Positions 9,201 through 64,000 of a stretch of 64,000 bases of DNA are shown here, piece by piece (positions within the stretch are counted from its first letter, which is position 1; every line of letters begins with the position of its first letter). The notes beneath the pieces are model-generated. The model was not told the DNA's origin. It saw nothing but the letters and a program-made list of their open reading frames with translations, and made no database searches. The DNA is from Chondrosia reniformis (lineage: Eukaryota > Porifera > Demospongiae > Chondrillida > Chondrillidae), in contig OX359191.1 of NCBI GenBank assembly GCA_947172415.1, positions 1,426,001 through 1,490,000 of the forward strand. The letters run 5' to 3'. Position numbers and translations under genes: made by a program.

Positions 9201-12200
9201 TGCTAAATCAAGTGTTCCAAAATCCTGTAAATAAGGTATCCCTATCTGACACCTTCCTTGAACAATATGCCAAGGAATTCATTGAGCAACTTGAATTTGA
9301 TGGTAGTCACTGGCAGATTACTAAACCAGATACTGAAGAGGAGGGAGATACATTCCCAGCACGTGATGAAATTTCTGGAAAAGAATGTATCCTAGAATAT
9401 CACTCAATGAAATATGCTGAAGCAGTCCCAACTAGTAAAGAATTGAGAAAAGAAGTCATGTTTGCCATACAAGGCATGAAGAGCAGAGAACAGGCTTTGC
9501 ATGGAGCCACTGTTTTAGTTCAACCATTTGCCAGTAAGACTGGGAGACTAAGTGGCCTTATTGGAGGCATGGTTGTGCATGTCATAAAGCAAAGTGAAGA
9601 GCAGTTATTTCTGTGTAAAATTGATCCTTTTAATAGTAGTCGATTTATTCCTTTAAATGAAAAAGGTCCTAAACTGGCCAACCTGCCTCCAATTTCTTCA
9701 AAGTTGCTTCAACTGGAAATGGCAGAAAGTGAAATCAAAGAAAGATCGAAACACAACAAGATCAATCCAGTACCTTGTTTTGATCTTCATCAGCTGGCAA
9801 AGGGCATCCCTAAATTGAAGGATGTTATTCCTTTTGAAACTGCCAAGAAACTTCTCTTCCTTGTTAAATTCATGTCTTGGCCTAAAGGAAGATTTTTTCC
9901 TATGGCAGGTGTTGTAGAGGCTTTCCCAGGAGTACACAGTACATTTTGTGCTGCCCGACTTTCTACTGCTATTGCCAAATTGTCCCATTCCAGTCAGCAT
10001 CCGAATGATCATACATCTAGCTTTAATGATCAATTTAATATCAATAGTGTAAAGAAAGCGCTAGAATGTAGTAGCAACTGTAAACTTGCCAATGTTGAAA
10101 TACTAGAATTCAAAGGAAAAGACATTAATTTTTCATCTAAAGATATTTGTGATGAAAGCTTACCCATTGGCTTAAAATATTTAACTTTAGGAAGTGTCTT
10201 TGAAACATTTCCTAATTCATCAAATCAGTGCATGGTCAGAAGTAAATGGAAATTTAAAATAATTTCAACAAAATCACCTAAGGAGTTTCTTGACGTCTTC
10301 ACAAACTTCAAAGAATTGAGGGATCCAGCTGTAGGTGACACCTTATTAAGGCACAGGGAGCTGAATACTGGAGATGAAATTCAAATATCCCTTGTCATTA
10401 CAAGAAGTGATGGAAGTCAAATTAGGCGGTTTAATGCCAGTACACCCAAGAAAATGTCATCTAATACTTCTTCAACAGCAAGTGTTAATTCTGCACATGA
10501 ATACAGAACTATAGGAAAATCTTCTATTGCTCCTCTCCTAAAGGAACCAATTGGTGTTTACCAGTTTGAAATTTCCTGTAACCTTGCCCAAAAGGAGATT
10601 CTTCCAGTTTGGATAGGAGCAGATACCTCAACTCCCATTATTAAGCCTGAAATCCAGCTGATTAGCCCTGGACCCTATCTGGAGATTTGTGTACCACATT
10701 CAGTTAGACCAGGTGAATGTTTTTCCAATCCAATTTTAAGGCATGCCTCTCTTGATAAATACTCGGACATACAACAATATCAAGATCTCTGGAAAGCTGT
10801 AATAGTAGCCGAATCTGCTTATTCTAGTACAGCTGATCAAAACTCCGAAGTCCTTTTTCTTGATAATATTTTGCTTGATTGGGGAGAGTCTCAACTGATA
10901 AGGGTTAACAGTCTAATGAATGACCCTACTTACCAAAGCCATGGTATAGTGTCATTTAGTTTATCTAGGGAGCTTCTAAAAGCTAGTGGCCAATTTATTT
11001 CCCTACAGCCAGGTGATTTTATTTGTGCTCGATATGGACCACAACTAAGCGCCTATTCTTTACTAATTGAATCAATGCAGCAATGCCAAAAATCAGTGTT
11101 TCATTTTGTTGTCAAAGCTATAGTTGACCACAAAGAAGATTCTTCTCAGCTAGTCAAACTAGAAATGATTGGAGAGCAGAATGCTCACATCTCTGAGAAC
11201 ATGTTTAACGTATTAAGAAAGGAAAAATTCCAATTGTCTTGCAGACTTCAAATTATAAACTGTCCGATACCACAAAGGTAATGTACAGAGTAATAAGGTC
11301 TATAGATATCAACTATATATGGCATATATATGGCTTATCATTATAGCCTTTGCACGGCTCAGTGCAATTGACTCCCCTCTATACAGTGTAGCCCACATAA
11401 TTCGAATCTCAGAATTCATTATCAAAAATTTGAATTAGGCAAAAATTTGAATGATCACTATTTCATTGAAATCAAATATACATATGTATTAAAAACATTC
11501 TTAGCCTTAGCCTTAAGTACTTCACCGCTGATGGGAATCGCCTGAACGCAAGCAGCTGCGAACCACAGGAACAAGGCATCATCCACTTCAGCTTTGGTTG
11601 AAGTTCTCTAGGCGTTTTTTCTGGAAGTTACCAAACGAGTGATTGTCCTGCAGTCGGTACTTATTCTTCATAATAGTGCTGAGTGTACTACAAGGAATAT
11701 TGTATATATTCGGTGGCTACGTCCTTTATCTTTTTGCCAGGTGGCAGACCTTCAACGCGTTCAACGATTTCACACTTTTTCTTTAGAGATAAAGATTGGT
11801 AGCTATTCCTTTTCATTAATATTTCTAGAAATTACAGATATTGCCCATTCAAAATTTTATATTGCTGATATACGGATTATTCTAATTAAACGAAATTTTG
11901 AAAGAACCGGATATGAATTATGTGGACTTACACTGTATATGGCATATTTTGAAATATTTGATAATAATTGTTTCAGCCGTTATGGTGAAGCTCACTACCT
12001 AATTGTCATATATGTACAATGTAGCAATAAATCTCTATTCTATCATATATATATATGGTATAATGTTACGAAATCATAGTATATTCCTTTTTTGGCTAAC
12101 ATTTACCAGAAAGCTGTCAACCAATTTACATTTTATTTTTCCTAAAGAAAGCACCTTCCAGCAAGATAATTTATTTTTAGGGGGCACTTAGTAATTGTAA

Positions 12201-15200: not shown

Positions 15201-18200
15201 ATTAAGTAATAGATCTAGGAATGACAGTCTACGTATACTAAGTTTTTAGCCTCATACTGATCTCAACCATAACTATAGGAAAATGGTGTTGTAATTATTC
15301 ATGTAACATGTATGTACATATTTTACATTAGCATTTACTTTTACATTTCCAGAGAAGAAGGGGAATATAAAAAGCTTATAAATAAGGCAGAAAAATTAGT
15401 ACTTACACAGACTCATTATCACATTGTCTTATGCACTTGCAATGAAGCTGCCAGTTCACGTATGAAGAAGTATTTTACAGTAGGACAGTGCATCATTGAT
15501 GAATGTGGCTTTGCAACAGAACCAGAGGTGATGATTCCCATTAAGCTTAGCAGTCATGTCGTACTTATTGGGGATCACAAGCAACTTCAACCAATTATCC
15601 GCAACAAGTGAGCAAGTCATATACGTATACCGACAAATGTATAAAGATGTACAGAATCTACATACGTACAGTAGAATCTTCCAAATCACCTCTAGATCTG
15701 ATAGATATATAAATAACATTATAATTTATTTTTGAGATCCCAGTTAAAACCCAATGCATGAGTATATATCTTCCTAAATATGGACATCTCTCTATCCCAT
15801 ACGAATCACAGCCATTGAAAGAGGCCTCAACCTGCCTATGTATATCATTAATATGCTGAAATTTACCCTATATAATGAGGATAGTATCTTTTAAGGATGC
15901 AGGCAATTCTGACAAGAGTACTCTTTGTTAATCTTCTAAAGCCAACATATGTAGGACAAAGAACTTCAACTTTATCTTCAGCACCACAAATTGACCCTTG
16001 AAATCAGACCAACTCTATATATACGTACATATTCACATGCATATGCACACAGTGTACTTAACTGATGGCTTACATACATATATAAATAAGCATTTCAAAA
16101 ATGAAGATACAGAAGTAGTGATGGCAGATCTAGAAAAATATCAAAGCAAGGCAGTATCACATTATAAGGCTAACCATACAGAAGTGGCATACTGAAATTT
16201 AAGTAACCTAACCATACACATCGCTTCTATGTTCATATTTATCTCATTAGCTACAGCTGAAGTGAGGACGATGTGCCCAAACACGGAAGTGATGTATATT
16301 CATGCATATACTTTCAGTATACCATGCACTTCTGATGGTTAGCCTTATCACATGATCACTATCTTGTTTTGATACTTTTCCAGATGTACTAGTCATTAGT
16401 GCAAGCCCCCTGATCCCATGCTACTCGACGCTTCAGTGCTTCAGTGCTGTAATTTTACTTTCAATTTTTACAGGATGGCTAGTGAAAATGGTCTAAATAT
16501 TTCTCTTTTTGAACGCTATGCTGAAAAGTACAGGAAAGCCAGGGAAGGAACACAGGAGGCTCCTGGACAAAAGCATCTGTTCATACAGCTTGAAGAACAG
16601 TATAGAATGGTAAATTCATTATATAAGTATAGAGTATATTTTGTTGTATTGGCAGCTTGACTCAGAAAAGGTCCATGCAGGACTCATGTACCTACGTAGT
16701 AATGTAACTGTATGCATTATTGTGTATATAATCATAGCATGTTTAATATAGAGGTCTTGCGTTCATTGTTTGGTTCAAGTTAATGCTTTATGTACTGTAA
16801 ATGGGTTTAAAATACATGTGGTCCGAAGTAGGAATTCAAAGGAACATGTAATTAGTTAGAGTTCCAATTGCATTGAAAATTCAAAGGGTAAAATTCAACA
16901 TTCTATGTTATCTACGTATATAGATCTATCCCACACTGTTACTCCTCTAATTAGATTATAAAGCATATGTATGTACATGCATATGGTTTCATAGTATGCA
17001 GGGTTTTGTAATAGTGTATTAATTTTTGTAAGTTTGAGTAAATATACTAAGCCATTTGATCTAGTCAACTTGTTCAAAGTATATAAACAGTTACTTGGCT
17101 TGAGCTTATAAATTTAATTGTGTAAAGTTAAACAGAGTACGTAATGTTTCAATATAAATGTTAACTTAAATTTATAATTGTGTGTGTATCCCTATATTCA
17201 TCGTTGCATTTATATTGTTTTTAAAAGCACCCAGCAATTTGTGAACTCACAGCTATGTCATTCTACAATGGAAACTTAACACTAGCAGCTAGTATCCGTA
17301 GAGAAATTGCTGATTCTGCTGATTTTTGGCCTAAAAGAAGGGATAGGAGCAGTTCCTTTCCTATAAAAATTATAAATGTTGTCGGAACTGAGTCAAGTCC
17401 TAAAAATCCTTCCAGTGATAAAACTGGACCAGAATCCAAAGAAAATGAAGCTGAAACTATAAAAGTGGTTAGTTTATTGCATGTAATGGTATATCTTACA
17501 TCTATGAAACGTTCTAAATCAAATAAATAGTGCGTGGGACCTTGGGATTTAAAAGCTTACATGCATGTGATCAGTTAAACCTGCAAATTATTTATATATA
17601 TAGCACTATACTTATAGACTCATCATGACTTCTGCCGAAAGATAATTACATGGAATTCGCCTTGCCCACGTATTATTTATTTCAGTCTAGATCTAGTCTT
17701 AGTCTTTAGTAAAGTCTTTGCTTCTGGACTATATAACTGATACCCAATATTACCATGGCATTCAGGCAGCCCAGGATCAGAGTGGCTAAAAAGTTAAGGA
17801 ATATGTGTAATTTGCTTCAGTTGCCGGTAACAAAGAAAACAAATGTGTATATAAGATTTACTTCACTTCCTATCTATTATAACTTGTTCACACCATATAC
17901 CCTATTAATCAGCAATTCATGCATGGTGTATACGGTAGGTAATGTCCCCAATGCCACGAAAAAATAGTACATTTCACCTGACAGATAAATAATACAGCTA
18001 TATAAGATGAGAGGTATATATAATTTGACCATGAACTAAAATTACATAATTTATGTATTTGGTATATATAAACAGGTAGAACTTGTCAGTAGACTGAAGC
18101 GGCTTTACCCAGATAAGGGGGTAGCTATTTTAACACCTTACTTGGGACAGAAGGATTGTCTCATGAGAACTTTTCGTTTAAAGCCACATGTACAGTGTCC

Positions 18201-22137: not shown

Positions 22138-22359
22138 TTAAACCTATATAGTTGTTTCACTATATAGTACCGTTTATACGCAGGAGATCTAGAACTCAAC
22201 AATGACTTACCACTTCCATTTATTTATATACATGGATGGTCAGTTTTTGTATGCTTATATATATGAATTAAAGTTACTATAATTATGCAAATTTAATTTG
22301 TATGTATGCATGCATGCATGTCACTCCTTCATTGCATGCTTCTACCAAACACCTATATC

Positions 22360-23495
22360 ATAGAGTACGGTAGTACTCTATAAGTAGGGATGGCCGAAAA
22401 AAAACATGGCCGCCCTATTCAATGTATTATCAATTAACACCTCATAAATCAACAACGTTGAGATTTTCGGTTGCATTCGTGTGTTTGCAGTCGTTTTTGC
22501 ATGCTTTTCTAAACGCCAAAACATGTTACGATGCTCTACAACCTTGGCAAAGTGGTTAAACCGAAATAGGCCAAATTCTGCAATTCCTCATTTTTTCTTC
22601 TTCTTCTTCTTCTTCTTCTTCTTCTTTTTTCAAATGAGCTAGCGCTAACATGCGAACTTACGCAGGTACATACAAATACTAAATCGTCATGAATGTTTCC
22701 GAACTAGGGAATAGGCTACCCTAGATTTCAACGCGCTCCAACCGAAGCGTGTTACTTTTGAAAGTGCCAAATTTAGGGCCTCTTTGAACGCCATTTTTTA
22801 ATTAAGTTTCAAATTCTCTGTATATAAAATAAGTAACCCGAATGAGTAATATTTGTGGTACTGCCGTTACCCGCGATCGAATTTCTTAGTCGCTTTGCAG
22901 GGCCTATATACAGTCGTATTCTTAACGATTATGGACCCTTTAATATCCTAAACTGAATGTTAAAGAACGGTAGAAAACATCTTATCAAATTTGGGATCTT
23001 TTCGGACGCCATTTTTTAATTTAGAGCTCTCTATTATATCGTCTATTCTGCTACTTTATTTCGAGTTTTCGCCAAGAAAACTTTCAAAACAAATATTAAC
23101 AAGAAAAAAGGGGCAATACAAGTTAAATAAAAACATTCAAAAATGAAGTTAAAAGTAGGGATGGCACTATAACTGTGATTGGCACATCTAGAAAAAGTAA
23201 CGAAACAAGAAAGTGATCATCTGGTAAGGCTAACATTGCAGAAGTGGCATACTGAAACTTAACTATACACATCACTTCTATGTTTGGGCGCATCGATCCC
23301 TACTTCTAGTATATCCATGATGCGCCCAAACATAGAAGTGATGTGTATAGTTAAGTTTCAGTATGCCACTTCTGCAATGTTAGCCTTACCAGATGATCAC
23401 TTTCTTGTTTCGTTACTTTTTCTAGATGTGCCAATCACTGTTATAGTGCCATCCCTACTTTTAACTTCATTTTTGAATGTTTTTATTTAACTTGT
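22360..23495 (+). mobile_element. Full copy A of the palindrome-bearing repeat
   Basis: Begins with a small palindrome (TAGAGTACGGTAGTACTCTA) followed by AAGTAGGGATGGCCG, continues through about 750 bp of non-coding DNA with a (TTC)n run near 22600, and ends in a long palindrome (separate entry). Nearly the whole unit recurs in opposite orientation at 31905-33030. No protein-coding capacity, so it needs a transposase from elsewhere. Its superfamily is not recognised. Confidence 0.85.
23118..23495. repeat. Near-perfect palindrome: two 177-bp arms, 24-bp loop
   Basis: Arm 1 is 23118-23294, the loop 23295-23318, arm 2 23319-23495. I find one mismatch (ATAACTGTGATT against AATCACTGTTAT). Each arm runs from ACAAGTTAAATAAAAAC to TTTGGGCGCATC. 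The unit is also found whole at about 31905-32282, as a half copy at 56496-56620 and in altered form at 63625-63830, so it is mobile. The short plus-strand frame inside is a by-product. Confidence 0.9.
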
Positions 23496-31891: not shown

Positions 31892-31904
31892 TGTTATTAT
31901 ATAT

Positions 31905-33030
31905 AAGTTAAATAAAAACATTCAAAAATGAAGTTAAAAGTAGGGATGGCACTATAACTGTGATTGGCACATCTAGAAAAAGTAATGAAACAAGAAAGTG
32001 ATCATATGGTAAGGCTAACATTGCAGAAGTGGCATACTGAAACTTAACTATACACATCACTTCTATGTTTGGGCGCATCATGGATATACTAGAAGTAGGG
32101 ATCGATGCGCCCAAACATAGAAGTGATGTGTATAGTTAAGTTTCAGTATGCCACTTCTGCAATGTTAGCCTTACCATATGATCACTTTCTTGTTTCATTA
32201 CTTTTTCTAGATGTGCCAATCACAGTTATAGTGCCATCCCTACTTTTAACTTCATTTTTGAATGTTTTTATTTAACTTGTATTGCTCCTTTTTTCTTGTT
32301 AATATTTGTTTTGAAAGTTTTCTTGGCGAAAACTCGAAATAAAGTAGCAGAATAGACGATATAATAGAGAGCTCTAAATTAAAAAATGGCGTCCGAAAAG
32401 ATCCCAAATTTGATAAGATGTTTTCTACCGTTCTTTAACATTCAGTTAAGGATATTAAAGGGTCCATAATCGTTAAGAATACGCCTGTATATAGGACCTG
32501 CAAAGCGACTAAGAAATTCGATCGCGGGTAACGGCAGTACCACAAATATTACTCATTCGGGTTACTTATTTTATATACAGAGAATTTGAAACTTAATTAA
32601 AAAATGGCGTTCAAAGAGGCCCTAAATTTGGCACTTTCAAAAGTAACACGCTTCGGTTGGAGCGCGTTGAAATCTAGGGTAGCCTATTCCCTAGTTCGGA
32701 AACATTCATGACGATTTAGTATTTGTATGTACCTGCGTAAGTTCGCATGTTAGCGCTAGCTCATTTGAAAAAAGAAGAAGAAGAAGAAGAAAAAATGAGG
32801 AATTGCATAATTTGGCCTATTTCGGTTTAACCACTTTGCGAAGGTTGTAGAGCATCGTAACATGTTTTGGCGTTTAGAAAAGCATGCAAAAACGACTGCA
32901 AACACACGAATGCAACCGAAAATCTGAACGTTGTTGATTTATGAGGTGTTAATTGATAATACATTGAATAGGGCGGCCATGTTTTTTTTCGGCCATCCCT
33001 ACTTATAGAGTACTACCGTACTCTATGATT
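31905..33030 (-). mobile_element. Full copy B of the palindrome-bearing repeat, inverse orientation
   Basis: Reverse complement of copy A (22360-23495) along nearly its whole length: the palindrome first (about 31905-32282, loop also inverted), then the non-coding body with a (GAA)n run near 32775, then the terminal AGAGTACTACCGTACTCT at about 33007-33028. Differences are scattered substitutions and a shorter triplet run. The palindrome arms are perfect or nearly so here. Together with copy A it flanks the FAM177-PRIMPOL pair. Confidence 0.88.
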
Positions 33031-33699
33031 ATTTATATTTATTGTCATTTTTTAGTGCTACATTGGACTTTTGTAATGTCCTAACACCTGTTGGTGTGGT
33101 GCACTCTAATCATGATATTAATATTGATTGATATACACCAAATTCTTAAATATAAGACTTCGGTATTGTATCTTCACCCTTCACTCAAATCTCTCTCCAT
33201 GTTAAGTTCCCTATATAATTATTTATTTCAAATTTAAAGTTGGGCATATAGCATGTAGGAAAATGGTGTATACGTATATATTTGATGAGATATATAACCA
33301 GTTTGAATTGGTAAAGTATGACATTAGATATCGATGGTGTAAAACGGAATAAAAATTTAATACATGTACATGTATGTAACTACTTTTATAGATATCTATT
33401 AGTATACTTGCAAGAGAGATAAAGCCATTGTCAGGAATGGCTACATTCTGTAGCTAAACATTTTGCAGGCTTCAAGACTTTATTTGAGAACTTTGGATTG
33501 TGGCTGACATAATATCAGTTATATGATATAGTTGCTAGTGCATGGTGTGAAATATTTATAATATATGTTTTTTTTTATACTTGCTGCAATGTAATTATAT
33601 ATATATATGCACACATTTCAACACCTACGTACGAGAAAATTCTTTGGAAACCTACACAGCAATTGCAACTTGTCACCTGCAGATAGAAACTATATCTGG

Positions 33700-34240
33700 C
33701 TATATATCAGAGAGTACGGTAGTAATCTCTAAGTAGGAATGGGCGAAAAAAATGGCCGCCCTATCCAATGTATTAGCAAACAACACCTCCATAAATCACC
33801 AACGAAGCGATTTTCGATTATATTCGGTTATTTGCAGCCATTCATGCACTCTTTTCTAAATGCCAAAACATGTTTCGACGCTCTACAGCGTTCAAAAAGC
33901 GGCTAACCAGGATTTAGGCCCATTTCCAAAATTCATTCTTTTTCTTTTATTGAATGGACTACCGCTAATATGCGAACTTATATGGATACGTAAAAGTTAT
34001 AAATCATCATAAATATTTCCAAACTAAGGAATAGACAGCCCTATATGTCCGAATGCGCTCTACAAGAAGCATGTTAATTGTGAAAAACGAAAATTGTGGT
34101 CTTCTCGGACGCCATTTTTATAGATAAGAGATGGTTTTCGGCATATTGCTCTTGTCTGAGACGTTATTTCGAGATATTCACCGTAAGTAATTTTAACAAG
34201 AAAAGGGGGAATAAAAGTAAATAAAAAACATTTACAAAAT
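33700..34240 (+). mobile_element. Copy C of the same repeat, without the palindrome
   Basis: Starts AGAGAGTACGGTAGTAATCT, continues with CTAAGTAGGAATGGGCG and the same body as copies A and B, and ends near TTTAACAAGAAAAGGGGGAA followed by AAGTAAATAAAAAACATT. The palindrome is absent at the place where it stands in A and B. About 20 percent diverged by eye, so older. Confidence 0.8.
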
Positions 34241-34857: not shown

Positions 34858-37188
34858 ATGTGTCCGAGACTCATAATACCGGTAATTCTCTTTTTTCTTT
34901 ACACCACCAGTGCTGAATTGGAATACAGTACTACCGCTACTCTATCAGGTAAGTTAAACATAATCGATTCATCCGCGGGTATGTATATATGTATATATAT
35001 GCACATATATACTGCATAGATAAATCAATGTAAACTTGTTATATATAGTACTTAATATTACATGTATATAGACAAGATGAAGGCTCAAGTTGAATCTCTC
35101 ATACAAGATGCCAGTATCAGAACTCGATCTACTTTTGGCAAACTACGCGATCAGCAACGGCCTGCCTCAAGAAAAGCACGAAATGTCCAGGAAGAAAGTA
35201 ATCGCTCTCCTCCCGCATTGCACAGCATTATGGCAAAACCGAAATCTATATCATTTAAATTGATAGAAAGAGCTATGAGTTCGGAAATGGCATTTCGCAA
35301 TTTGACGATTTTAGCTAACGCGAATCCTCAATTTTCGTCAGCCTGGGAAAATCAAAGAATTCGACGCCAGATAGCTGAAATTGTCATGCAAAACTGTGTT
35401 GATCTGAATGAGGTCGACATCAGTTGTAATGAAGAGTTCGCAAAACTCAAAAGCCACCTTCCCGAGTTTGATGGCAGCAGGCATTCCACTTTTGATGGAA
35501 CGTGCAATAATTTACGAGCAAAAACTGCAGGTGCTACTCCAATTCCATTGAAAAGATTCCTACCAGCCGCTTATGACTCCCTTCCCTCAACTCCAAGACA
35601 AACCTCAAAGTTAGGAGGTCTCCTTCCAAGTACACGAGACATATCCAATGCCATTGGTAGCGGTATACAAGTCGGTAGTGGTATTTTTACAATGTTAGGA
35701 ATTACATGGGGTCAATTTTTGGATCATGATATCGATCTTACGTGTGCAGGGAATTTTGACTTAGGTATGAGCTGTGCAAATGTTTGCCGTAACCAGCAAG
35801 GCAGCGAATGTTTTCCGATTTTAATTAATTCGAGTGACCCAGACTTGAGTTGCAGAGAGTGTATTCCGTTCACAAGATCCTGTCCAGCATGTGTAAAGCC
35901 ATGCAGTGACATTAACGAGCCGGGACCAAGGGAGCAGATTAACCAGATCACATCTTACATTGATGCCGGCTTGGTTTATGGTGGACCGGATTCTAATGAG
36001 GAACAATACTGGATGAATTTATATAATCAGACAACTGGTAAACTTCGGGTGCAGCGAAGTCATTTTGATACAGATCTTCTGCCTGACGCAGACAAAGGAT
36101 TTGATAAGTGTAACAGTGGATGCTTCGTTGCAGGTGATTCTAGGGCAAACGAGGCTACAGTTCTTACTGTTCTTCACACCATCTTTCTGAGGGAGCACAA
36201 TCGTCTAGTAACTGGTTTAAGTCAAATAAATCCTACCTGGGAACCGACAAAGTTGTATCTTGAAGCGAGGAGAATCGTAGCTGCAGAATTACAACACATA
36301 ACCTATGAGGAATTTGTTCCACTCATGTTAGGTTCCAAGCTACCCACCAGGTCTTATGACAACAAATATACTGCTTCTACCAGCAATGTCTTTGCCACTG
36401 CTAGCTTCAGATTTGGTCATGGTACTTTAACTGAAGATTTCCTCAGGTTGGATAGTGATTACAAGAATTCTACACCTGCACTGCCAATGCATCAAGGATT
36501 CTTTGATACTAGTCACCTTAGACAACCTTCAGAGGATGGTGGACTAGATAGTTTTATTCGAGGCATGGCTGTGCAAGAGGCATTTAAGAATGACAGGAAA
36601 TTTTCTGATTCTGTGAGGAACCGTCTCTTTGAGAATCAAAATCATGATTGTGGACTAGATCTCTTGGCACTAAACACTCAACGAGGAAGAGATCATGGTC
36701 TGCCTTCTTACAACAAGTGGAGGCAATTTGTGAAGACTCAATGTGGCAGGACTACAGGAAGAGTGCAGACCTTTGACGACCTAAAAGATGACATTCCAAC
36801 CGATGCTCTGGATAAGTTGAAATCCATTTACAAGCATGTAGATGACATAGATTTGTTTCCTGGTGCCATGTCTGAAAAACTATTTAGAAATGCAGCGACA
36901 GGACCAACCTTTGCTTGCATAAATAAACTACAATTCACTTTGTATCGTAAAGCAGACAGGTTTTGGTATACTAATCCAGGTATATTTACAGAAGAACAGA
37001 GGAAAGAACTTCGATCCGTCACTCTCGCCAAGATCTTGTGCGATAATGGAGACAACATAGAGAGAATTCCCAGGAATGTAATGCAATTCAAGTCTGCCTC
37101 ACCAAACCTCGTAAATTGTTCTGATATACCTGCAGCTGGGATTGATCTTACCAAGTGGGGACCGGTGATGAACTCGATGACGGGCTAA
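34858..37188 (+). CDS. Secreted animal haem peroxidase (peroxinectin/peroxidasin superfamily)
   Basis: Two exons, 34858-34948 and 35072-37188, joined in phase to 735 aa. The N-terminus is a signal peptide: after Met-Cys-Pro-Arg comes a hydrophobic run (LIIPVILFFLY) ending at a small-residue site, so the product is secreted. Residues about 150-710 are one peroxidase domain. The distal His is in GQFLDHDID (about 249), the Asp beside it is the usual haem-ester and calcium-site residue, the proximal His is in FRFGHGTL (about 480), and ALNTQRGRDHGLPSY (about 565) is the helix following the proximal side. Cys-rich loops (CFPILINSSDPDLSCREC) match the family. No immunoglobulin, LRR, EGF or membrane segment, so it is nearer peroxinectin or myeloperoxidase-type enzymes than peroxidasin or dual oxidase. 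It uses H2O2 to oxidise halides or phenols, in defence or matrix crosslinking. The alternative upstream start is less likely because it would bury the signal peptide. Confidence 0.9.
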
Positions 37189-41995: not shown

Positions 41996-42881
41996 ATATA
42001 TCTTCTTCAGTCAGAAGAAAGAAATAACAAGGAGCTGTAGTAATTGGTGGATCAATAGATAAAGCTGGCTTCGTTTAAAAGCGATTCCGCGCCGAAATTT
42101 TGGAAGACAAAGAAATCGATTGGTTCCTCTACGTGACAAGGGATTGGACTATCTCTGGATGAATTATTGCGTCACGCACGGCTGTTTTAAAGGTATTCCC
42201 TTTGGAAACTTAGTAAAATTGCGCAATATCCATTACATCATGGGAAAAAAATGGAGGATCACGTTTTTAATAGGAATGGCCATACATTTTGGCCTAGTGT
42301 AATGGATGAATTTTGAGGCTGTCAAAGTTTTCCGAAGAAAACTGTTGCTATAGCGGGTGTAAGGGAGATATCTACTTCATTTACAGGTGAGTTTAATTCT
42401 GCTTACATTAAAGGATCTCCAGATTAAATTAATTTTTAATCGTCATTAAATGTTTACTTCTCTGCTTATTCACAATAAATTATTGAGAATAACTGTCACT
42501 GATTACCCTTATTATGGTGGGTAATAACAGTAGTTTGTTATCTGGTGTCCCTGGTTGGAGTACAGCTAGTAACGGAACCTCTAGGAAGGTCTTCATGCTT
42601 TAGTGGGCAGTGTCATGACATGAAACTGTCGATTTCACATTTAAACATTCAAGATGTGATATATTAGTGTGGTACTTTATATAATTTGTGCTCAAGAGCT
42701 AAAGAGAATCTCCCAATAATAGATATACGTAGATAGTTTTTGCAGCTGCAACAATGAATACGATGATAATATTGGCAGCTATTCTTAGAAACAAAATTTG
42801 TGGACTTCCCTGAATGACAAGGTTGTTATATAGGAGTCATATATGTTTGTATTTAATCTGGTAACATTTATCAAAGTATTA
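41996..42881. other. NF-YA promoter side and 3' flank of the RAG1-like gene
   Basis: No coding exon supported. The part just upstream of NF-YA (42050-42110) is less AT-rich (GCGATTCCGCGCCGAAATTT) as expected of a promoter. The rest is AT-rich. No inverted end repeats matching those near 48 kb were found. Confidence 0.4.
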
Positions 42882-45800
42882 TTATATTCTCATTATTTTT
42901 GTTGGTGGCTGTGTATTTGTTGCTTGAATCTGTGTGTGATGCTCTTTAATTGTTAGTTCTAATCTCTTTAAGCTATCTTTAATGCATACAAACTGCCTTT
43001 GTAGCTGATTAAATTTTGCATGGATAGATTCACCTCCTTGTTCATTATGGAACCCCAAGGCCACCTTCCACCTCTTCATCCATGGCACTACATGTTCCTC
43101 CAGTATATGTAGCTTTGGGGTTATGGAGGCATCAGGAAACTCTAAGCGGTAGTACTGTAGAAAGCTCCTTATTCTTTCATCTATACATGTAGATATAGAT
43201 AGAGAGGTGCATGCTTGCAGTTTTATACAAGTATACACAAATTGCATGCATTAGGCTCTCCTATCTGATTCTGTATCAGTATAATCTATTTTTACTGATA
43301 TATTTCCTAATGTTTTATTGCAAAGAAAATCTACTATTGGTATATAGAGACATGTAGTTTCTTACCTAAATCTAAAAGGTCCCTTTCATTGACTGGTTCT
43401 GATGATGAATATGCATGATGGCAGCTTGCAAAAAGTTTGAAAAAAACTTCAAACCTTTCACAAATGTATTCACATTGGTTGACCAAACTTGCTCCTCCTA
43501 CCTTCTCAGCAGTATTCACCAAGCTCCCACAAATGGTTACAATAGCATCGTCCTATATACATGCCAATTCAGCATCATGTCTTAATTACTGTAACTCAGT
43601 AGACCACAATAGTAAAATCATCATCTGATAAAAAACTACATTTGCACTAGATCCAGATGTGCCATTTTGGCAGGGGTATGTAAAGGTGTTACAATGTGGT
43701 ATAAATATTAGTGTTCAAAGTGTTTGTGGCAATGCGCAGTTGATGCATGACCTCAGCTCTACCTCAGTCTAGGGTGATAACCCAGATATCGTACTCGTAA
43801 TGGGATATAACTATAGCATATACATGTCATGGGCAATGACCAGATATTGTATGAGGATATAAAGACTGATTAAATATATGTATCATATACATTTGTAGTT
43901 TTTGCATTTAGTTTGTGAGTGTCTTAAAGTGATAAAGATTGAAATGTTTACCGTGGCTACTTTTAATTGGCTTACAAGGGAATAGCTCAACTCATGTGAG
44001 CTACATTGTAAAAGTAGCTGGTGTGCTATAGGCTAGATAATTAGTGAGAACTTGCATAAGCAAAACCAACTGATTGATGCTCCACTTCATTGGCCATGCA
44101 TTTTCTTCAGTATATATACATTCACCGCATGCATGCTGTACTGTAATTCATAAAATATATTATGTGGTATATATAAAACCTGATTGTTGGGTGCTTATCT
44201 TAATTAATTTAGCCATGACACATGCATAGCTCACTTGTAGACATCTCTGCACATGATTGCCAACAAAAGACCCACTGTGGTATGCTTGCCTTTGCACATT
44301 ACATTTGGCTAAAGCTTCTTCAAGGCTACTCAAAAAGGGGGCATCCTGCTTCTCAAACTGCTGCATTTTCTGCTCAGATGCTTCCACCAACTTTAGCTAT
44401 TTATGGCATCATGTGTAAATGTTAATATCAAGGAGTTAAAGCTATCATAAGAAGCATGCTATCAGAAATTCACCTTTTCATCCCTCTTATTCAAGATTTC
44501 CTTAGTTTCCTTCTTCAGCGTTTCCACAAGTGGGTCTGCTTCAAAGTCTTCTATCACAGCGGGAGACACTGCTAAAAAGTTGGCAACCTCATCTAGTGTT
44601 CTAGCTTCCTCCATAAGTGCTTGGCATTCCTCCTTTAGTTTATTGACTGCTCTTACTTGGCTGACGTATGTTGTATAAGTTGGACCAGCCACCATCCTAA
44701 TGTTGGAAGTAAGACTTGATTCAGAGGCTAGCTGCATATCCAGAGCACGACAGGCTGTTTCAATTAGTTTGAAGCAGCGACAAAAAATCCCTAAGCTTAG
44801 GTGTAATCCTGGTGGGCAAACCTGCATGGAGTATTGAAGCAAAAGACTGACTGACTATATATGCAGACCCTATATATTTTATGTAGAACATGTGTTACAT
44901 GCACATAAATTGAATTGAAGATTAATTGATTATAGTTCAGGAATTAGTTATAGATATACTTACTTAGCTCTCTTTAATCATTATCTTAGAGGAACTACTA
45001 CTGTCTTCTATCTTACACTTATAACCTACTTGGAGCTTTGTAGAGGAGGAGTGTAAGATAGAAGACAGTTAGTTCCTCTAAGATACCTCCTATACTTGCC
45101 TGCACAATGTATGTATGTACATACATGATTAGTTCCATAATCAATATAATAAGTATATATTTAGTGATCATGATTACCTGTTCAAGTGGAATGTTTATTA
45201 TTGGCTTGGACTTGACGTTGTTATAATGCTTCACCTCCTTCAGCTTGTTGCCTGCATCACAAAATCTTCTGTTGTCTTCATGCAGTTGGTTTAAAGTCCT
45301 TAATTCTGGTGTGCTGGTTCTGTTCAGAGGTGGAATTAGGAGGTCTCTGCTGCTGACTGTGCACCACAGACATGGATGGCAGCCTAAAATGTTCCGAAAC
45401 ATTGACTTGTGCCAACATTAGGAGCCATTAAATAGTATGTAACTTACCAGATGGACCTGATAAACCATACACCTTACACAAAAATTCATAATCCCCATAC
45501 ATGAAAAATCGGAAAGACTTTTCTCTATCAGAAGAGATAATAATGAAAAAGAATATATTAAATCATTTTAATCTGAAGCAACCTACTGCCATTTCATTTC
45601 CTGTAACTCAAGTAGCTGTTCATTGTATTCTTTTAGGGCAATGTTCAGGTTTATCAAATTGTCGTCAGCTTCAAATGCACAGAACACAAATGTATTCTGC
45701 ACTGAATTTGGATGGGGAACATTGCAGATCTGCAAGGACATCTTGAAGCTTCCTCCACCCTTATCGCCTCCTATTTTTACCCAGATCTCTTCTTCAGGTA

Positions 45801-47785
45801 TGACACCATTATGCCAGGTCAATGTGCCTTGCCTATATGTTGAAAAAAATTATAAATGAATATACAATATATAAAAACAGATAAATGTTAAATGTATTAA
45901 AATACAAACCTTTGAAACTTGTGAAGAAGTGAAAGAAGTACTTCTTTAAGCCTTGATGTTTGGACTATGGGTGTTAGCTTGAACTCCATTCCAAAGTCGT
46001 TCCTTACATTAATTCCCATTGGAACATATTCTGCTTGAAGTTCAAAAGCAAGCTCCTTATTGAGATATGATCTCATTGCTCCCTCACTAGCCGGCTTAAT
46101 TTGCCACTGCTTCATCCACCTAAAAATGAAGCACATGAAGTATTATGATTCATTGAAATGGGGTTATTACAACAATTTATCACAATTAACCTTCTGAGTA
46201 GTCTTAATTTGCTCCAAGGAAGTCCTAATTCTGTCTTCAGGGTAAATGTAGACATTACTGAAATGTCTCGTGATTTGAATCCCAAGGCCTCCAAAAGGTC
46301 ATCTCTTTCTTTCTTGTTGCCCTTTAACTCATGGCATAACTGTAAAGAGCTCTGTCCTCCACTTACTGCCTGTCTGACCATTGCAAGTTCCTTGGATCTG
46401 TTTTTTACAGTCCTTGCACCAGCTCTTTCTGTGTCCTTCCTTGATTTTGTAACTTTAATCAAATTTAACGGCTATTAAAAATGTATAATTTTCGTGAATA
46501 TATAATATATTGTATGCATGCACCACATATCAATTGATGATATTTAGTGACTTATAGGGAGTATATACTGTTACAATTCTAGTTATATATGTGTGTTTTG
46601 GTAGTTATTGGTGATAGCTCCAATAAAATCCTATTGCATGTAATCAACGTTTATATATAGTCTCCTCAGTTGTGAACATTATATGTCAGATGGTCCTATA
46701 CTTCTAGTCTATAGTTTACTAGTCATGATTACCAACTTGAATTAAGGAATTATTGTATAACGTGAAGTGTTTAATAATTGGTATAATAGTCCTTAACCCG
46801 TTAATTGCCACCTGATGCAGTTCTGAATCATGCACTGTGAAAATCACTTAGCTTTGATTGTACCTACCTGACCTCTGGTTGGTAAGAGAATGTTTTCTGT
46901 TTGATGTTTGCGCATGAGACGTTTTATTATATTAGTGCAAGCCTGCTTTTCTGCTGTTGTGGGGGTTTTTGTAATTGGACATTCTCTAATTGCCGATAGT
47001 GTTTTTGGCTTTGCAGGGGCTGATACTGGTGTTTGTTGACACTTATGGGTGTTAACAGTTTCCAGGTAGATGTCCATGTGGCAACAGCTACAAAGAACTG
47101 TAATCAACTTGAGGGTGCTTGTGAGGAATGGACTTGGAGGCTTTATGTCATCAACAGACAAAAGTACATTTGGACACACAGGACAGCTGGGTATTGTCAT
47201 TGTGCCAGTTTGAAGCCACCTAATGCAGCACTCCATGCAAACCACATGCCCACATTTTGTTTGAATGGGTCTGTCTAAAATATAGCTGCAAACAGGGCAG
47301 ATAATATCCTCTATAGATACACCTTTTGGTGTACTCTTGCATACAGAGGGATCAATGCTTCTACCAGCAAGTGATGGTGGAGCTATGGCATTAACATGGC
47401 ACACCAATTGTGAAGATGATACTAGGTCATCGTGGCATTGAGGAGGCTTGTATTTTTTGGGTCTACCTCCTTTAGATAGCATTTTGGCATGATTGCAGGT
47501 ATTGCACCAACTCTCACTGTGCTTGTACCATTCTATGGCAAATGATGTGATAGAATTCTTTCCTCTTTTCTGCGCTACAGCCATTTTGCTGTAACACATG
47601 TGGCAAAACTTTCCAGGGTGTATTTGCGAGTCATCCCTGACAACACATATCTTGAAATATGTTTCAATAATCCTGGAATGCTTTCTGCACTCATAGGTAA
47701 CCCTTTGATTCTTCAGATATCCTCCACACAAACGGCAAAGTTCAGCAAGAAAGCTTTGATGTATCTCTGATGTTGGCGTCTCCAT
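42882..47785 (-). CDS. RAG1-like: RAG1-like protein: RAG1-type zinc N-terminus, RING and transposase-like core
   Basis: Ten exons, minus strand, all phases closing, no internal stop, about 977 aa (human RAG1 1,043): 47785-46868, 46471-46191, 46119-45910, 45832-45587, 45524-45448, 45383-45178, 44821-44474, 44396-44235, 43552-43366, 43180-42882. Residues 1-110 match the RAG1 N-terminal zinc region: CRLCGG, IHPGKFCHMCY, a Trp-centred stretch, then WCNTCNHAK. The RING is at 163-204 (CPVCSYIL...CGHVVC...CPVC), followed by a second zinc finger (CSCC...H-x-C, 232-249) as in the RAG1 RING/ZFA unit. The core keeps the order of RAG1 landmarks: Asp493 in KIGGDKGGGS (RAG1 CDGMGD), YGLSGPSG then CHPCLWC (RAG1 EGLEASG...CTLC), CPPGLHLSLGIF (RAG1 DALHCDIGNA) and NEQGGESIH, Glu925/929 (RAG1 SEGNESGNK). 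Exon 1 is open upstream to an AG, so a 5' exon may exist. Role unknown: domesticated transposase or intron-bearing element. Confidence 0.8.
44983..45084. repeat. Hairpin of about 36-bp arms in a RAG1-like intron
   Basis: ATCTTAGAGGAACTACTACT, then GTCTTCTATCTTACACT, is matched in complement by AGTGTAAGATAGAAGACAGT and AGTTCCTCTAAGAT, with a 2-base length difference. The loop is about 27 bases. Between exons 6 and 7. Not RSS-like. Confidence 0.75.
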
Positions 47786-48816
47786 CAGTGTATTTTCTTC
47801 AACCTAAAACAACAAGGTAAGTGCATTCTCACCTAGTATATATCTTGTTTGTGCTATACTTAGTGTAAGTTCAAATAATATTTGTTTCTTCAAAGGTCAT
47901 TTTTTGATGTTATGCAAAAATGGAGGTTAATTGATTTAATTTTGACAACTGGCTGACTTCCTTTAAGGCTTTCCTTGTGGTAAATTAAAACTTTAATTAC
48001 CTTTGCGAAAGGAAACCTTAATTCATGATATCTGTCCAAGCAAGCCTGTATCTTATCTTTGACAATGAATAGAATGTTTGGGTCAGGTCATGCAACAATT
48101 ATTTATTTAGTAAATTTTAATTTTATTTGACAATTTATGCATACATTTATATGGTGCTACTACATGTTTTAAATGGTTGTTAGATGTATATAACATGAAT
48201 ATTTTCCTCCATTTAGATGTATCTCCATTTATATGAACACCCATGCATGCAGAATTGAATTAATATAATCATTTAATATTTTTATAATAATGTACAATTG
48301 TTAAATTTATTTATAATACATGATGTTAGTTCTGAAAATTGTGTTACTGAGGAGACTTACTCTGTACAGTGAATTAATCTACATAAATAGAAATAGAAAA
48401 TGTTTCAATTAATGCACAATAAACACTCTTTTATAGTTATATATTTAGGCTCTAGAGCTTGGTTTCTTTGATGTAAGCAGCTGAAGATATAGCTGACAGT
48501 GTTCATTCAGGAGTGATCTTACTTGTGCTTGGATCCTCGAGTCCAGGAAAACTTCAGAAAAGCCACAAACTTGCACTAAAATAACAATTTAAAGTACGCG
48601 CGCAATACGGTATAAAACCGGAAGTAAGACGTGGGGGGCGGGTAAAATGACATCATTAAAAATCTAAGTTACACGTCACGTACAGCCGTGCACGTTGCCT
48701 TCACTCTACTATGACGTCATATTGCCACTATCATCACATACAGTAGGTGACAGTTTGTAGTAATAAATATTTACAAAAAATATAAATATACGCACGAAAA
48801 GTAGCAATGCATGGAT
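47786..48816. other. Upstream region of the RAG1-like gene
   Basis: An acceptor-like TTGTTTTAG precedes GTTGAAGAAAATACACTG and the RAG1-like ATG, so a 5' exon is likely. A candidate untranslated exon with a GTAAGA donor lies near 48527-48583. The 48580-48720 stretch is locally GC-rich (ACGCGCGCAATACGG, GTGGGGGGCGGGTAAAA) and could be the promoter. No other gene seen. Confidence 0.4.
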
Positions 48817-61072: not shown

Positions 61073-62059
61073 TTACAAAGTCACAATCTCAGCATGGTCT
61101 TCATGAAGACATCCAGCCTTTCGGAGCGCCTCAATTAACTCAACATTGTCAGCCATTTCTCTAACTTGTTTAGCGGAAAAGCGAATCTTGTTTGCCACTA
61201 ATCCTCCACACTTCTCAAAGACCACTCCACACATGACAGATCCCGTAAAGTCAGTACCGGAATCAAAGTAACAATTTTGAAATTTAACCCCACTGAGATC
61301 ACAGTAACGAAAGTAGCTTTGCCCACAAAGACATATGTTGGAGATTTGCATACCATAAGTGGTTTTAATTCTTGAAAATTGATAGGTCCAGTATTGATAA
61401 TAGGATATTGTCAAGCGTTGTGACTTATTTGGGCCATAATCAAATAAAGGAGTTCCAGAGAAGCTGCTATTAACAGAGGTGCCGATGATTTGAAGTGGAG
61501 CAGGTGGCAGGAAAGTGTCTTTCAATTGATTAATGGAAAAACAGCCAGCAAGTATTCGAATATCATTTATGAGATCTGGAATTTCAAAGAACTTAGCCTC
61601 TTCATGAATTTCATAGAGTTTTATACTTCGCTCTGGATCAGTTAGAAGTCGAAATTTCACAAGCGATGGAAAGCCAGATCGAAGGTATTCCAAAATATGC
61701 TCAAAGATTCTGCCATTTCGGTCAATGAAAAATTCATTGGTTTGGTTTTCAGATTTCTCAGGTGGATGGAGGCCGCTGAACATGGCAGAAAGCATGTAGG
61801 AACGAGGGATGTTCTGAGTTAGGGTCATCTTAGAGACTCTGTATTTGACTCCACCAACATCAAGAGTGACATTGGGGCCAAAGGCTGACTTTTCTTTAAG
61901 CTTCTTCTGTTCATTCTTCCAGCCAGCTATATCGCCTTCGAGAGATACTCTCTCCTTTTCCAATCTTTCCGCTTCCTCCTTAAGTTTGTCCGCTGCTTCA
62001 GATATGTTTCTTTGCGCCATTTCCGAATATTTCTGAGTGTATTCGACAATACGGCTCAT
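61073..62059 (-). CDS. KCTD-type BTB protein, single exon (copy 1)
   Basis: 328 aa, no intron. Residues 1-55 form a charged coiled coil (EAADKLKEEAERLEKERVSL). Residues about 63-165 are a BTB/T1 domain with the KCTD signature NVTLDVGGVKYRVSKMTL, a MLSAMFSG turn and FFIDRNGRIFEHILEYLRSG. After a linker (EIHEEAKFFEIPDLINDI) the C-terminal third has pentapeptide-like spacing (YCDLSGVKFQNCYF, DFTGSVMCGVVFEKCGG). KCTD proteins oligomerise through T1; many serve as Cullin-3 substrate adaptors. Neither the coiled coil nor the C-terminal module points to a specific vertebrate KCTD. A close paralogue lies head to head. The lack of introns in an intron-rich region suggests a retrocopy origin. Confidence 0.88.
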   Translation of the reverse strand: MSRIVEYTQKYSEMAQRNISEAADKLKEEAERLEKERVSLEGDIAGWKNEQKKLKEKSAFGPNVTLDVGGVKYRVSKMTLTQNIPRSYMLSAMFSGLHPPEKSENQTNEFFIDRNGRIFEHILEYLRSGFPSLVKFRLLTDPERSIKLYEIHEEAKFFEIPDLINDIRILAGCFSINQLKDTFLPPAPLQIIGTSVNSSFSGTPLFDYGPNKSQRLTISYYQYWTYQFSRIKTTYGMQISNICLCGQSYFRYCDLSGVKFQNCYFDSGTDFTGSVMCGVVFEKCGGLVANKIRFSAKQVREMADNVELIEALRKAGCLHEDHAEIVTL

Positions 62060-62413
62060 ACTGCAATGAAGTACAAAGCCGTACTAGACGGACTGGAAAT
62101 GACGGATTCGGAAGACGTTAAGCAGTTCCGAAAACACCTTCTAGTAGGTACAAAAAGCGTTCCAAGAAAGGGGTGGTGATTCCGTTGTATAGGCGTGTCC
62201 GACAAAATGACTGACGACAATATCTCTCGTTCATAAATAAAACAAGTAATAAAGTTAACCCAGGGAATATCTACATATGTATCTCTCTGTATAAGTTCTT
62301 GTGTATTCCGAATCTACTTTAAAAAGTACCAAATTCATACCGATGACCTTTCTTCGATATGGTAGGTGCTACATAAAGGGATTTTCCCCGATAAACGCCA
62401 TTTTTCTGAAATT
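62060..62413. promoter_or_regulatory. Divergent promoter of the KCTD-like pair
   Basis: 354 bases between two outward-facing ATGs. Locally less AT-rich around 62090-62200 (GACGGATTCGGAAGACGT, GGTGGTGATTCCG). No TATA box close to either start. Likely shared control of the two paralogues. Confidence 0.45.
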
Positions 62414-63370
62414 ATGGTGAATACAGCATCACATTTAGCTCTTTTAAACATTACCGAAGCATCTGAAAAGCTTCAGATGGAGACAAAGAGGATAATTGAG
62501 GAGAGAAACGCGCTGGATAAGGAACGGCAACAGTGGGAAGAGAACAAGAAGTTGCTCAGAGAAAAATCAGCATTCGGAAAAAATGTCCTCCTCGATGTTG
62601 GCGGTATCCATTACAGGGTTTCTATAATGACTCTGACTCAAGGTGTACCCAAGTCTAGAATGTTATCGTCAATGTTTAGCGGACTCTTTCCACCTGAAAA
62701 GACACAAGAAACCTTCTTTATTGATCGCAATGGAAGAATCTTTGAGCACATTTTGGAATATCTACGCGTCGGTTTTCCCTCCTTGTCTAGATTAAGGCTA
62801 CTTGGTGAACCTCAAAGAAGTATAACTTTACACGAGATACACGAAGAGGCTAAATTCTTTGACATTCCAGACCTAATAAACGACATTTATATACTAACTG
62901 CATGTTTCAAACTTGCAAATTTGAAGGATCTCCTATTACCAGTGACACTCACCGCTAAAGGAGGACTTAGTAACCCGGCGTATTCTGGAGCTACTAAGAT
63001 AGATTATGGGGAAGAGAAGGGTAACAATATTGAAATAAATAACTGCTATGCTTTCGAATTTCGATATCAAAAAGTAAGATCCGCATATGGCCCTGTGATA
63101 ATGGGGATCTGTCTTTGTGAAGGCAGCTACTTTCACTACTGTGACTTGAGTGGGGTTATCTTTAAAAACTGTTATTTTGCTCCCAAGACCGATTTTACTG
63201 GATCTATTATGTGTGGTGTATGTTTTGAGAAATGTGGAGGACTGGTGGAAAACAAGATTTGCTTTTCTAGAAAGCAGCTCTGTGAATCAGGTGTGGATGA
63301 CACCCTTGCAGATGCCTTACGTAAAGCAGACTGCATTCAAGAAGAACTAGTGAAAGTTTCTACTTCATAA
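62414..63370 (+). CDS. KCTD-type BTB protein, single exon (copy 2)
   Basis: 318 aa from the ATG at 62414. Same build as the neighbour at 61073-62059: coiled coil (EERNALDKERQQWEENKKLL), BTB/T1 domain (NVLLDVGGIHYRVSIMTL, FFIDRNGRIFEHILEYLRVG), linker (EIHEEAKFFDIPDLINDI) and the Cys-rich pentapeptide-like end (YCDLSGVIFKNCYF, DFTGSIMCGVCFEKCGG). About half the residues are identical by eye, so the pair arose by an inverted duplication that is not recent. An earlier in-frame non-ATG start is disregarded. Possible Cullin-3 adaptor; partner unknown. Confidence 0.88.
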   Translation: MVNTASHLALLNITEASEKLQMETKRIIEERNALDKERQQWEENKKLLREKSAFGKNVLLDVGGIHYRVSIMTLTQGVPKSRMLSSMFSGLFPPEKTQETFFIDRNGRIFEHILEYLRVGFPSLSRLRLLGEPQRSITLHEIHEEAKFFDIPDLINDIYILTACFKLANLKDLLLPVTLTAKGGLSNPAYSGATKIDYGEEKGNNIEINNCYAFEFRYQKVRSAYGPVIMGICLCEGSYFHYCDLSGVIFKNCYFAPKTDFTGSIMCGVCFEKCGGLVENKICFSRKQLCESGVDDTLADALRKADCIQEELVKVSTS

Positions 63371-64000
63371 GATAGTTTATGGGAATTTAATATGCAGCCC
63401 TTCCACCTTCATCCTGTCAACATGCAAAGCACTGGGGCACTTTAAAACAAATCTCTCACTTTTCAAGTACTTGTATGTATAAGTTATACAGTAAGTTGTC
63501 ATTGGATATACATACATATTGCCGAATATAACCGAAATCGCTTCGTTGGTGATTTATGAGGTGTTGTTTGCTAATACATTGAATAGGGCGGCCATTTTTT
63601 TTCGGCCATTCCTACTTAGAGAGTTATACAAGTTAAATAAAAACAGAAGTTAAAAGTAGTGATAGCAGTACCTACAACAGTGATTGGTACATCTGAAAAC
63701 AAGACAGTAATCATATGGTAAGGCTAACATTGCAGAAGTGCCATACTGAAACTTAACCATACACATCACTTCTATGTTTGGGTGCATGATGGATAGTAGA
63801 AGTAGGGATGATGCACCCAAACATACGAGTAATGCGTCAACATTGTGGTTTACGTGCGTCTGATTGGAAGTGCCCGAAATCAGAAATCAGATCCTTGCAC
63901 AAGACTTGTATGAGTTAGATCAGACCTTACTTTCAATGTGTACCGGATCTGAAACTGATGTCAGACATTTTCTTTTTCTATTGCTATGGTAACACAATAT
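63371..64000. repeat. Repeat-filled right end: family body fragment plus palindrome
   Basis: 63520-63622 is the left end of the palindrome-bearing repeat in reverse (TTGGTGATTTATGAGGTGTT, AATAGGGCGGCCATTTTTTT, CATTCCTACTTAGAGAG). At about 63625 it joins ACAAGTTAAATAAAAACAG, the start of a shortened palindrome that reaches its loop near 63790 (GATGGATAGTAGAAGTAGGG) and breaks off soon after. From 63840 to the end I see nothing identifiable. Confidence 0.7.

Follow-up and report, generated by a model that had tools for sequence, protein, structure and literature searches.

A stretch of 64,000 nucleotides from the sponge Chondrosia reniformis (contig OX359191.1, positions 1,426,001 to 1,490,000; "the window" below is this whole stretch) carries on its minus strand a ten-exon gene for a protein with a RAG1-type N-terminus. 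The gene is very probably the transposase of a Chapaev-type cut-and-paste DNA transposon that carries one intron-bearing gene, for a RAG1-related enzyme. After splicing it comprises 2,934 bases, that is 977 codons and one terminal stop, and 9/9 introns are bordered by GT-AG. The exons are as follows:

46868..47785, minus strand: exon 1, RAG1-type N-terminal zinc region (Chapa), RING at about residues 163-204, then a zinc region; Pfam RAG1_imp_bd and RING; profile match to RAG1 101-380
46191..46471, minus strand: exon 2, linker and start of the core; sits where RAG1 has its nonamer-binding domain (NBD), identity putative
45910..46119, minus strand: exon 3, core
45587..45832, minus strand: exon 4, core with the first catalytic Asp, D493; DUF1280 (Pfam, 1.1e-14)
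45448..45524, minus strand: exon 5, second catalytic Asp, D563
45178..45383, minus strand: exon 6, zinc CxxC, C582 and C585
44474..44821, minus strand: exon 7, core with PPGLHLSLG motif
44235..44396, minus strand: exon 8, core with SFVGNH motif
43366..43552, minus strand: exon 9, core
42882..43180, minus strand: exon 10, HxxxxH (H903, H908), catalytic Glu E929 and stop

The spliced protein has 15 homologues at E <= 0.001. Five of them, 981-1028 amino acids (aa) long, span 95-99% of it, and coverage by the remaining 10 is 16-86%. The top homologue, from Ephydatia muelleri, has 820 aa and is 35% identical over 86% of the query. Hydra vulgaris LOC124809337 (981 aa) is 28% identical across 98% of the query, and the four long homologues beside it (994-1028 aa) span 95-99%. 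Entries labelled scpid are presumably from the sponge Sycon. Together, the 977-codon frame, the GT-AG introns and this coverage indicate that the ten-exon chain is not a chance reading, and bear out the claim of an earlier, sequence-only reading that ten exons close to 977 aa without an internal stop. That reading placed the gene correctly at 42882..47785, but missed the mobile element surrounding it at 42177-48690, the parts of which are:

42177..48690, minus strand: Chapaev-type DNA transposon, family A, complete, 6,514 bp (blastn against the copies on contigs C2 and C4)
42173..42176, no strand: target-site duplication CACG, left (CACG-element-CACG)
48691..48694, no strand: target-site duplication CACG, right
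48683..48690, minus strand: terminal CACGGCTG, upstream of the transposase, 12-type end
48659..48670, minus strand: subterminal motif AACTTAGATTTT, 12 bp inward of CACGGCTG
42177..42184, plus strand: terminal CACGGCTG, downstream of the transposase, 23-type end
42207..42218, plus strand: subterminal motif AACTTAGTAAAA, 22 bp inward of CACGGCTG (aligned ends and pattern search; below the threshold of both motif scans)

The genome searched comprises 117.4 Mb in 15 contigs, with the window on contig C3. Exon 1 occurs in it three times at 99-100% identity, on C3 (the window), C2 and C4; a partial 88% match lies on C5, where the copy of family A has decayed into pieces. The copies on C2 (99.1%) and C4 (99.0%) start and stop at the same element base as that in the window and have unrelated flanks (blastn). 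Searches with the terminal 300 bp recovered at least three full-length ends for each end, together with at least two and at least three partial or diverged matches. All three full copies have the ends CACGGCTG...CAGCCGTG, and both of the others keep all nine GT-AG introns. Relative to the window copy they carry 24 and 31 substitutions among 3,580 non-exonic bases and 16 and 15 among 2,934 exonic ones, a low divergence that points to recent movement of family A. Under the window exon limits the frame is open in one of the three full copies, that of the window, with exonic length changes in those on C2 and C4; the copy in the window has the look of an autonomous element. Window segments 216-409, 16128-16393, 22353-23495, 31898-34182 and 63522-63624 belong to a dispersed repeat that has inverted parts and is also found around the C2 and C4 copies.

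Three related families (B, C and D) were identified in the same genome, at these positions:

C5:2244509-2253258, C5:4660550-4669615 and C2:3914710-3923490: family B copies
C3:5392017: further family B downstream end
C2:6238745-6245738 and C3:5043638-5051417: complete family C copies, duplications AGCT and TCTT, 12/23 end layout
C13:4186656 and 4188211: family D, one locus with one transposase gene; 11-bp spacer at each of two nested gene-5' ends

The three copies of family B are 8.8-9.1 kb in length and 94-99% identical, and all are flanked by exact target duplications of 4 bp. Family C has two complete copies (7.0 and 7.8 kb) and one partial copy on C6. Exon-wise matches of families B-D to the window protein are 32-35% identical, and B and C share 72-74% DNA identity, in pieces. 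Of 106 match edges in B-D, 57 lie no more than 5 residues from a window intron, as against 10% expected by position, although the edges of the copies are not independent. These edges, and the introns kept in the family A copies, indicate that the introns belong to the element as old parts of it and are no sign of a host gene. Exact 4-bp duplications flank six of the eight complete insertions of families A-C (CACG, AAGT, TACG, GGGG, AGCT, TCTT). A decayed DUF1280 locus with stop codons and piecewise similarity to the window protein lies at C5:4492720-4492893. At C13:2088421 there is a lone CACGGCTG-23-AACTTAG end with an unrelated spacer, perhaps a remnant or a non-autonomous element; it was not counted as a fifth family, as about 8 kb there held no clear transposase and one weak match at E 0.01.

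The relation of the protein to RAG1 is most direct at the N-terminus, which matches the Pfam models RAG1_imp_bd and RING. A profile search returned 32 proteins, 30 of them with a precomputed DUF1280 assignment. Against a mouse RAG1 chain, the family profile scored 2.9e-31 over the whole chain, the best stretch being RAG1 101-380 (2.5e-29 alone), and in this N-terminal region the two proteins are collinear. The core landmarks D493, D563, C582/C585, H903/H908 and E929 occur in the order of RAG1. The cysteines lie 19 and 22 residues past D563, the same spacing as in RAG1 (D708, C727 and C730). The profile places HxxxxH and the Glu on RAG1 H937, H942 and E962 (numbering counted in the printed alignment), and the score drops from 8.2 to 4.2 bits in 6oem_A, where Gln is printed in the place of the Glu.

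By sequence alone the core is not recognised as that of RAG1. Pfam assigns it to DUF1280 (PF06918, 1.4e-17), and PF12940 (RAG1) is absent among the matches of the protein at E up to 1; a search of the sponge's own genome with PF12940 gave no match, which is uninformative because it was run without a positive control. In the best 60 of 94 Protein Data Bank matches, the 977-aa protein is aligned within the N-terminal region and RING, and no best stretch passes residue 258. Kinship of the core with RAG1 is seen only via the family profile, weakly, and via the predicted structural model of a homologue (35% identity over 86% of the query), which VIA-align comparison shows to have a RAG1-like core fold and a RING-zinc dimerisation fold. 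No NBD was found by the profile of the exon 2 region; one row of the model alignment (6cil_A) sets model residue 178 onward against RAG1 408, at 10.2 A root-mean-square deviation. This evidence supports a RAG1-type N-terminus and a core of predicted RAG1 fold united in one frame, in agreement with the sequence-only reading, whose order of N-terminal zinc region, RING and core landmarks likewise stood. That reading would have been abandoned had the core aligned to an unrelated DDE family with no RAG1 or Transib score. Half of this was found, in that the Pfam family is a different one, while the fold of the model is that of RAG1.

According to the available part of PMC4079192, Chapaev transposons generally have 3-4-bp duplications and CAC/GTG ends. 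Here, CAC...GTG ends are present in the family A copies and, with two exceptions, in B and C, the duplications are mostly of 4 bp, and the core is of the DUF1280 type, a family equated with Chapaev, with DDE, C(2)C and H(3-4)H. The truncated RAG1 N-terminus followed by RING, the hallmark of the Chapa-RING subgroup, is also present. Several observations nevertheless weigh against this assignment. The C2 copy of family A is flanked by TTTGT, a 5-bp match, and the C4 copy has no clean target duplication, so that among the eight complete insertions the duplication is of 5 bp in one and lacking in one. Run exon by exon, the Pfam DUF1280 model matched the genome at 4 places, all of them outside families B-D, which are thus tied to the window family solely by similarity to the window protein. 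In addition, the modelled protein is the homologue described above and not the window protein itself.

A Transib or RAG-like (RAGL; RAG1L-RAG2L) transposon would account for the RAG1 fold of the core, the RAG1-type N-terminus, the CAC ends and the 5-bp duplication at one copy. Such an origin is nonetheless highly improbable given the DUF1280 core unmatched by PF12940, and the duplications, since RAGL, RAG and Transib elements give 5 bp in the available text of PMC7204232 (e.g., HzTransib, ProtoRAG) and the sponge insertions mostly 4 bp. There is also little room for a RAG2-like gene, the largest gene-free stretches being 705 and 905 bp and the introns at most 682 bp; this was inferred from space, with no domain search there. 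Compared with vertebrate RAG1, the sponge system shares the collinear N-terminus, the modelled core fold and the series D, D, CxxC, HxxxxH, E, and differs in a core unmatched by the Pfam RAG1 model, in mobility, in 4-bp duplications, in having no RAG2 and in an inner end motif other than the nonamer of the recombination signal sequence (RSS). Also highly improbable is that an old RAG1-like transposon gave rise to a resident host gene, the reading proposed from sequence alone on account of the intron-rich structure. The nine introns, the intact frame and the low copy number of family A are in its favour, but the ends of the window copy itself are intact and flanked by a target duplication of 4 bp, two further copies of about 99% identity lie on other contigs with the same ends and introns, and the other three families break at many of the same positions. 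Moreover, exonic change is not clearly below non-exonic change, and so gives no sign of host selection. A resident RAG1 gene was rejected on the copies, ends and target duplications, and the Chapaev assignment is retained.

By the sequence-only reading, a RING region and core in one protein at the base of animals would push their joining far back, or else point to a parallel fusion. That the sponge gene moves the joining back is not supported, and the joining itself is not new. The available sections of Kapitonov and Koonin 2015 (PMC4411706) describe Chapaev transposons, for which lancelet and starlet sea anemone are given as sources, that bear a Chapa domain, a truncated RAG1 N-terminus; in two subgroups a RING comes next, the order known from RAG1. 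The authors infer that the two were fused long ago, in an ancestor shared by Chapaev and Transib. The sponge protein shares with these Chapa-RING elements the N-terminal zinc region, RING and a DDE core distantly related to Transib/RAG1, and the element has the CAC/GTG ends and 4-bp duplications given for Chapaev (PMC4079192). By the same account (PMC4411706) canonical Transib transposases have no identifiable domain beyond the core, whereas the sponge protein adds a RAG1-type N-terminus. What differs from the Chapa-RING elements is the sponge host and the bipartite, unequal ends, with spacers of 12 and 22-23 bp, which were not found stated for Chapaev in the texts available.

In families A-C the end upstream of the transposase consists of CACGGCTG, 12 bp, AACTTAG and a T-rich tail. 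At the downstream end CACGGCTG and the motif are 23 bp apart in families B and C, as against 22 bp in A, and the short side is the gene-upstream side in all three families. The ends of B and C are as in A, except for one C-copy end (CATGGCTG) and one B-copy end (CACGTCTG); the inner motif varies to ATCTTAG in family C and AATTTAG in one B copy. The family A downstream motif, AACTTAGTAAAA, has an A-rich tail; it was missed by the automatic scan, was read from the aligned ends and fits the pattern search. Neither the RSS heptamer CACAGTG nor the nonamer ACAAAAACC was present at the element ends, CAC alone being shared with the heptamer. The ends of the N-RAG-TP element of Aplysia are said to be RSS-like. 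Compared by description only, N-RAG-TP resembles the sponge transposon in being a transposable element of RAG1 N-terminal-like sequence (PMC8355894, as far as available).

The pattern CACGGCTG-N(5-35)-ACTTAG has 19 matches in the genome, with spacers to AACTTAG of 12 (five), 11 (two), 22 (three) and 23 bp (six) and three odd spacings, which we put down to chance; as a control, the reversed pattern had 7 matches. As the copies are not independent, these counts show a layout and not a probability. When the first 400 bp of eight ends were scanned (one copy each of A, B and C, and two D ends), the motif was at the expected place in seven and was the sole match in six of these, the B downstream end having a second weak match at 332. 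At the eighth, the A downstream end, it was seen by eye, the scan giving just a weak match at 250 that is unrelated. In the copies compared, the families do not differ in the terminal 8 bases and have 7-12 of the inner 13 in common. Of the 11-12 spacer letters, 1-7 are alike in pairs that include a 12-type end; the figures are 5-7/22 for A versus B and C, and 13/23 for B versus C. This pattern indicates that spacer length is kept while the letters are lost, most clearly for A versus B and C.

A mechanism can be proposed in which one protein would carry out cut-and-paste transposition. The core would grip the CACGGCTG block at each end, the RING-zinc region would serve in dimerisation, and a more N-terminal or linker part might hold AACTTAG further inside. 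A paired complex would bring together a 12-type end with a 23-type end, the DDE site would cut at the CAC border, and the element would be joined to target strands cut 4 bp apart. Binding, end pairing, hairpins and present activity are what we infer from the anatomy of the element.

If the ends are indeed paired in this way, short (12) with long (22-23), a working 12/23-like rule would exist outside the Transib/RAG branch. We consider this a tentative and rather unlikely proposal. The asymmetry may instead have come down with the layout that related families share, or reflect where the block borders were set, and play no part in end pairing; this has somewhat less than an even chance. Families A-C share ancestry, and as B and C are close the independent lineages number about two. 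The values 12 and 22-23 hinge on the block borders; only the difference of 10-11 bp between the ends, about one helical turn, is free of motif definition. The spacer at the family D gene-5' end is 11 bp, and CACTA relatives also bear subterminal motifs. Unequal ends of other spacing are known from RAGL elements, e.g. oyster and ProtoRAG 27/31 (PMC8355894, available part). Against an absence of any pairing role stand the spacer lengths kept between families, the motif at its expected place in the scanned ends, the eighth by eye, and the constant orientation of the short side. The available part of PMC8355894, a paper of 2021, names some Transibs as the only transposition known to share the 12/23 asymmetry of V(D)J recombination, and notes that the derivation of V(D)J recombination from a transposon is thereby left with a gap. 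A literature search, mostly without subscription journals and without Repbase Reports, found no report of 12/23-like Chapaev ends in the texts available, which is weak evidence of absence.

The window also contains other genes. Two similar BTB/POZ-domain genes lie head to head at 61073-62083 (minus) and 62366-63370 (plus). An AAA_11 helicase-like open frame at 5603-6643 (plus) is possibly one gene with an 801-aa open frame at 8876-11281 (plus), which has no Pfam match at E up to 0.001. At 35056-37188 (plus) a 710-aa frame for an animal haem peroxidase runs without interruption; its best species-named relative is from the sponge Halisarca dujardinii (52%; among the best 120 of 990 matches, the higher ones being without species).

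Since RING-bearing Chapaevs had already been described, a plain RAG1-like gene in a sponge matters less than its ends. One compact sponge genome holds several related families with intact ends and a transposase with both RAG1-type regions, and a testable question arises: can a distant cousin of RAG1 alone, without RAG2, distinguish short from long ends? If so, the signal asymmetry of V(D)J recombination would be ancestral to the Chapaev-Transib-RAG group, older than RAG2 and bilaterians, or would have been reached repeatedly by this fold.

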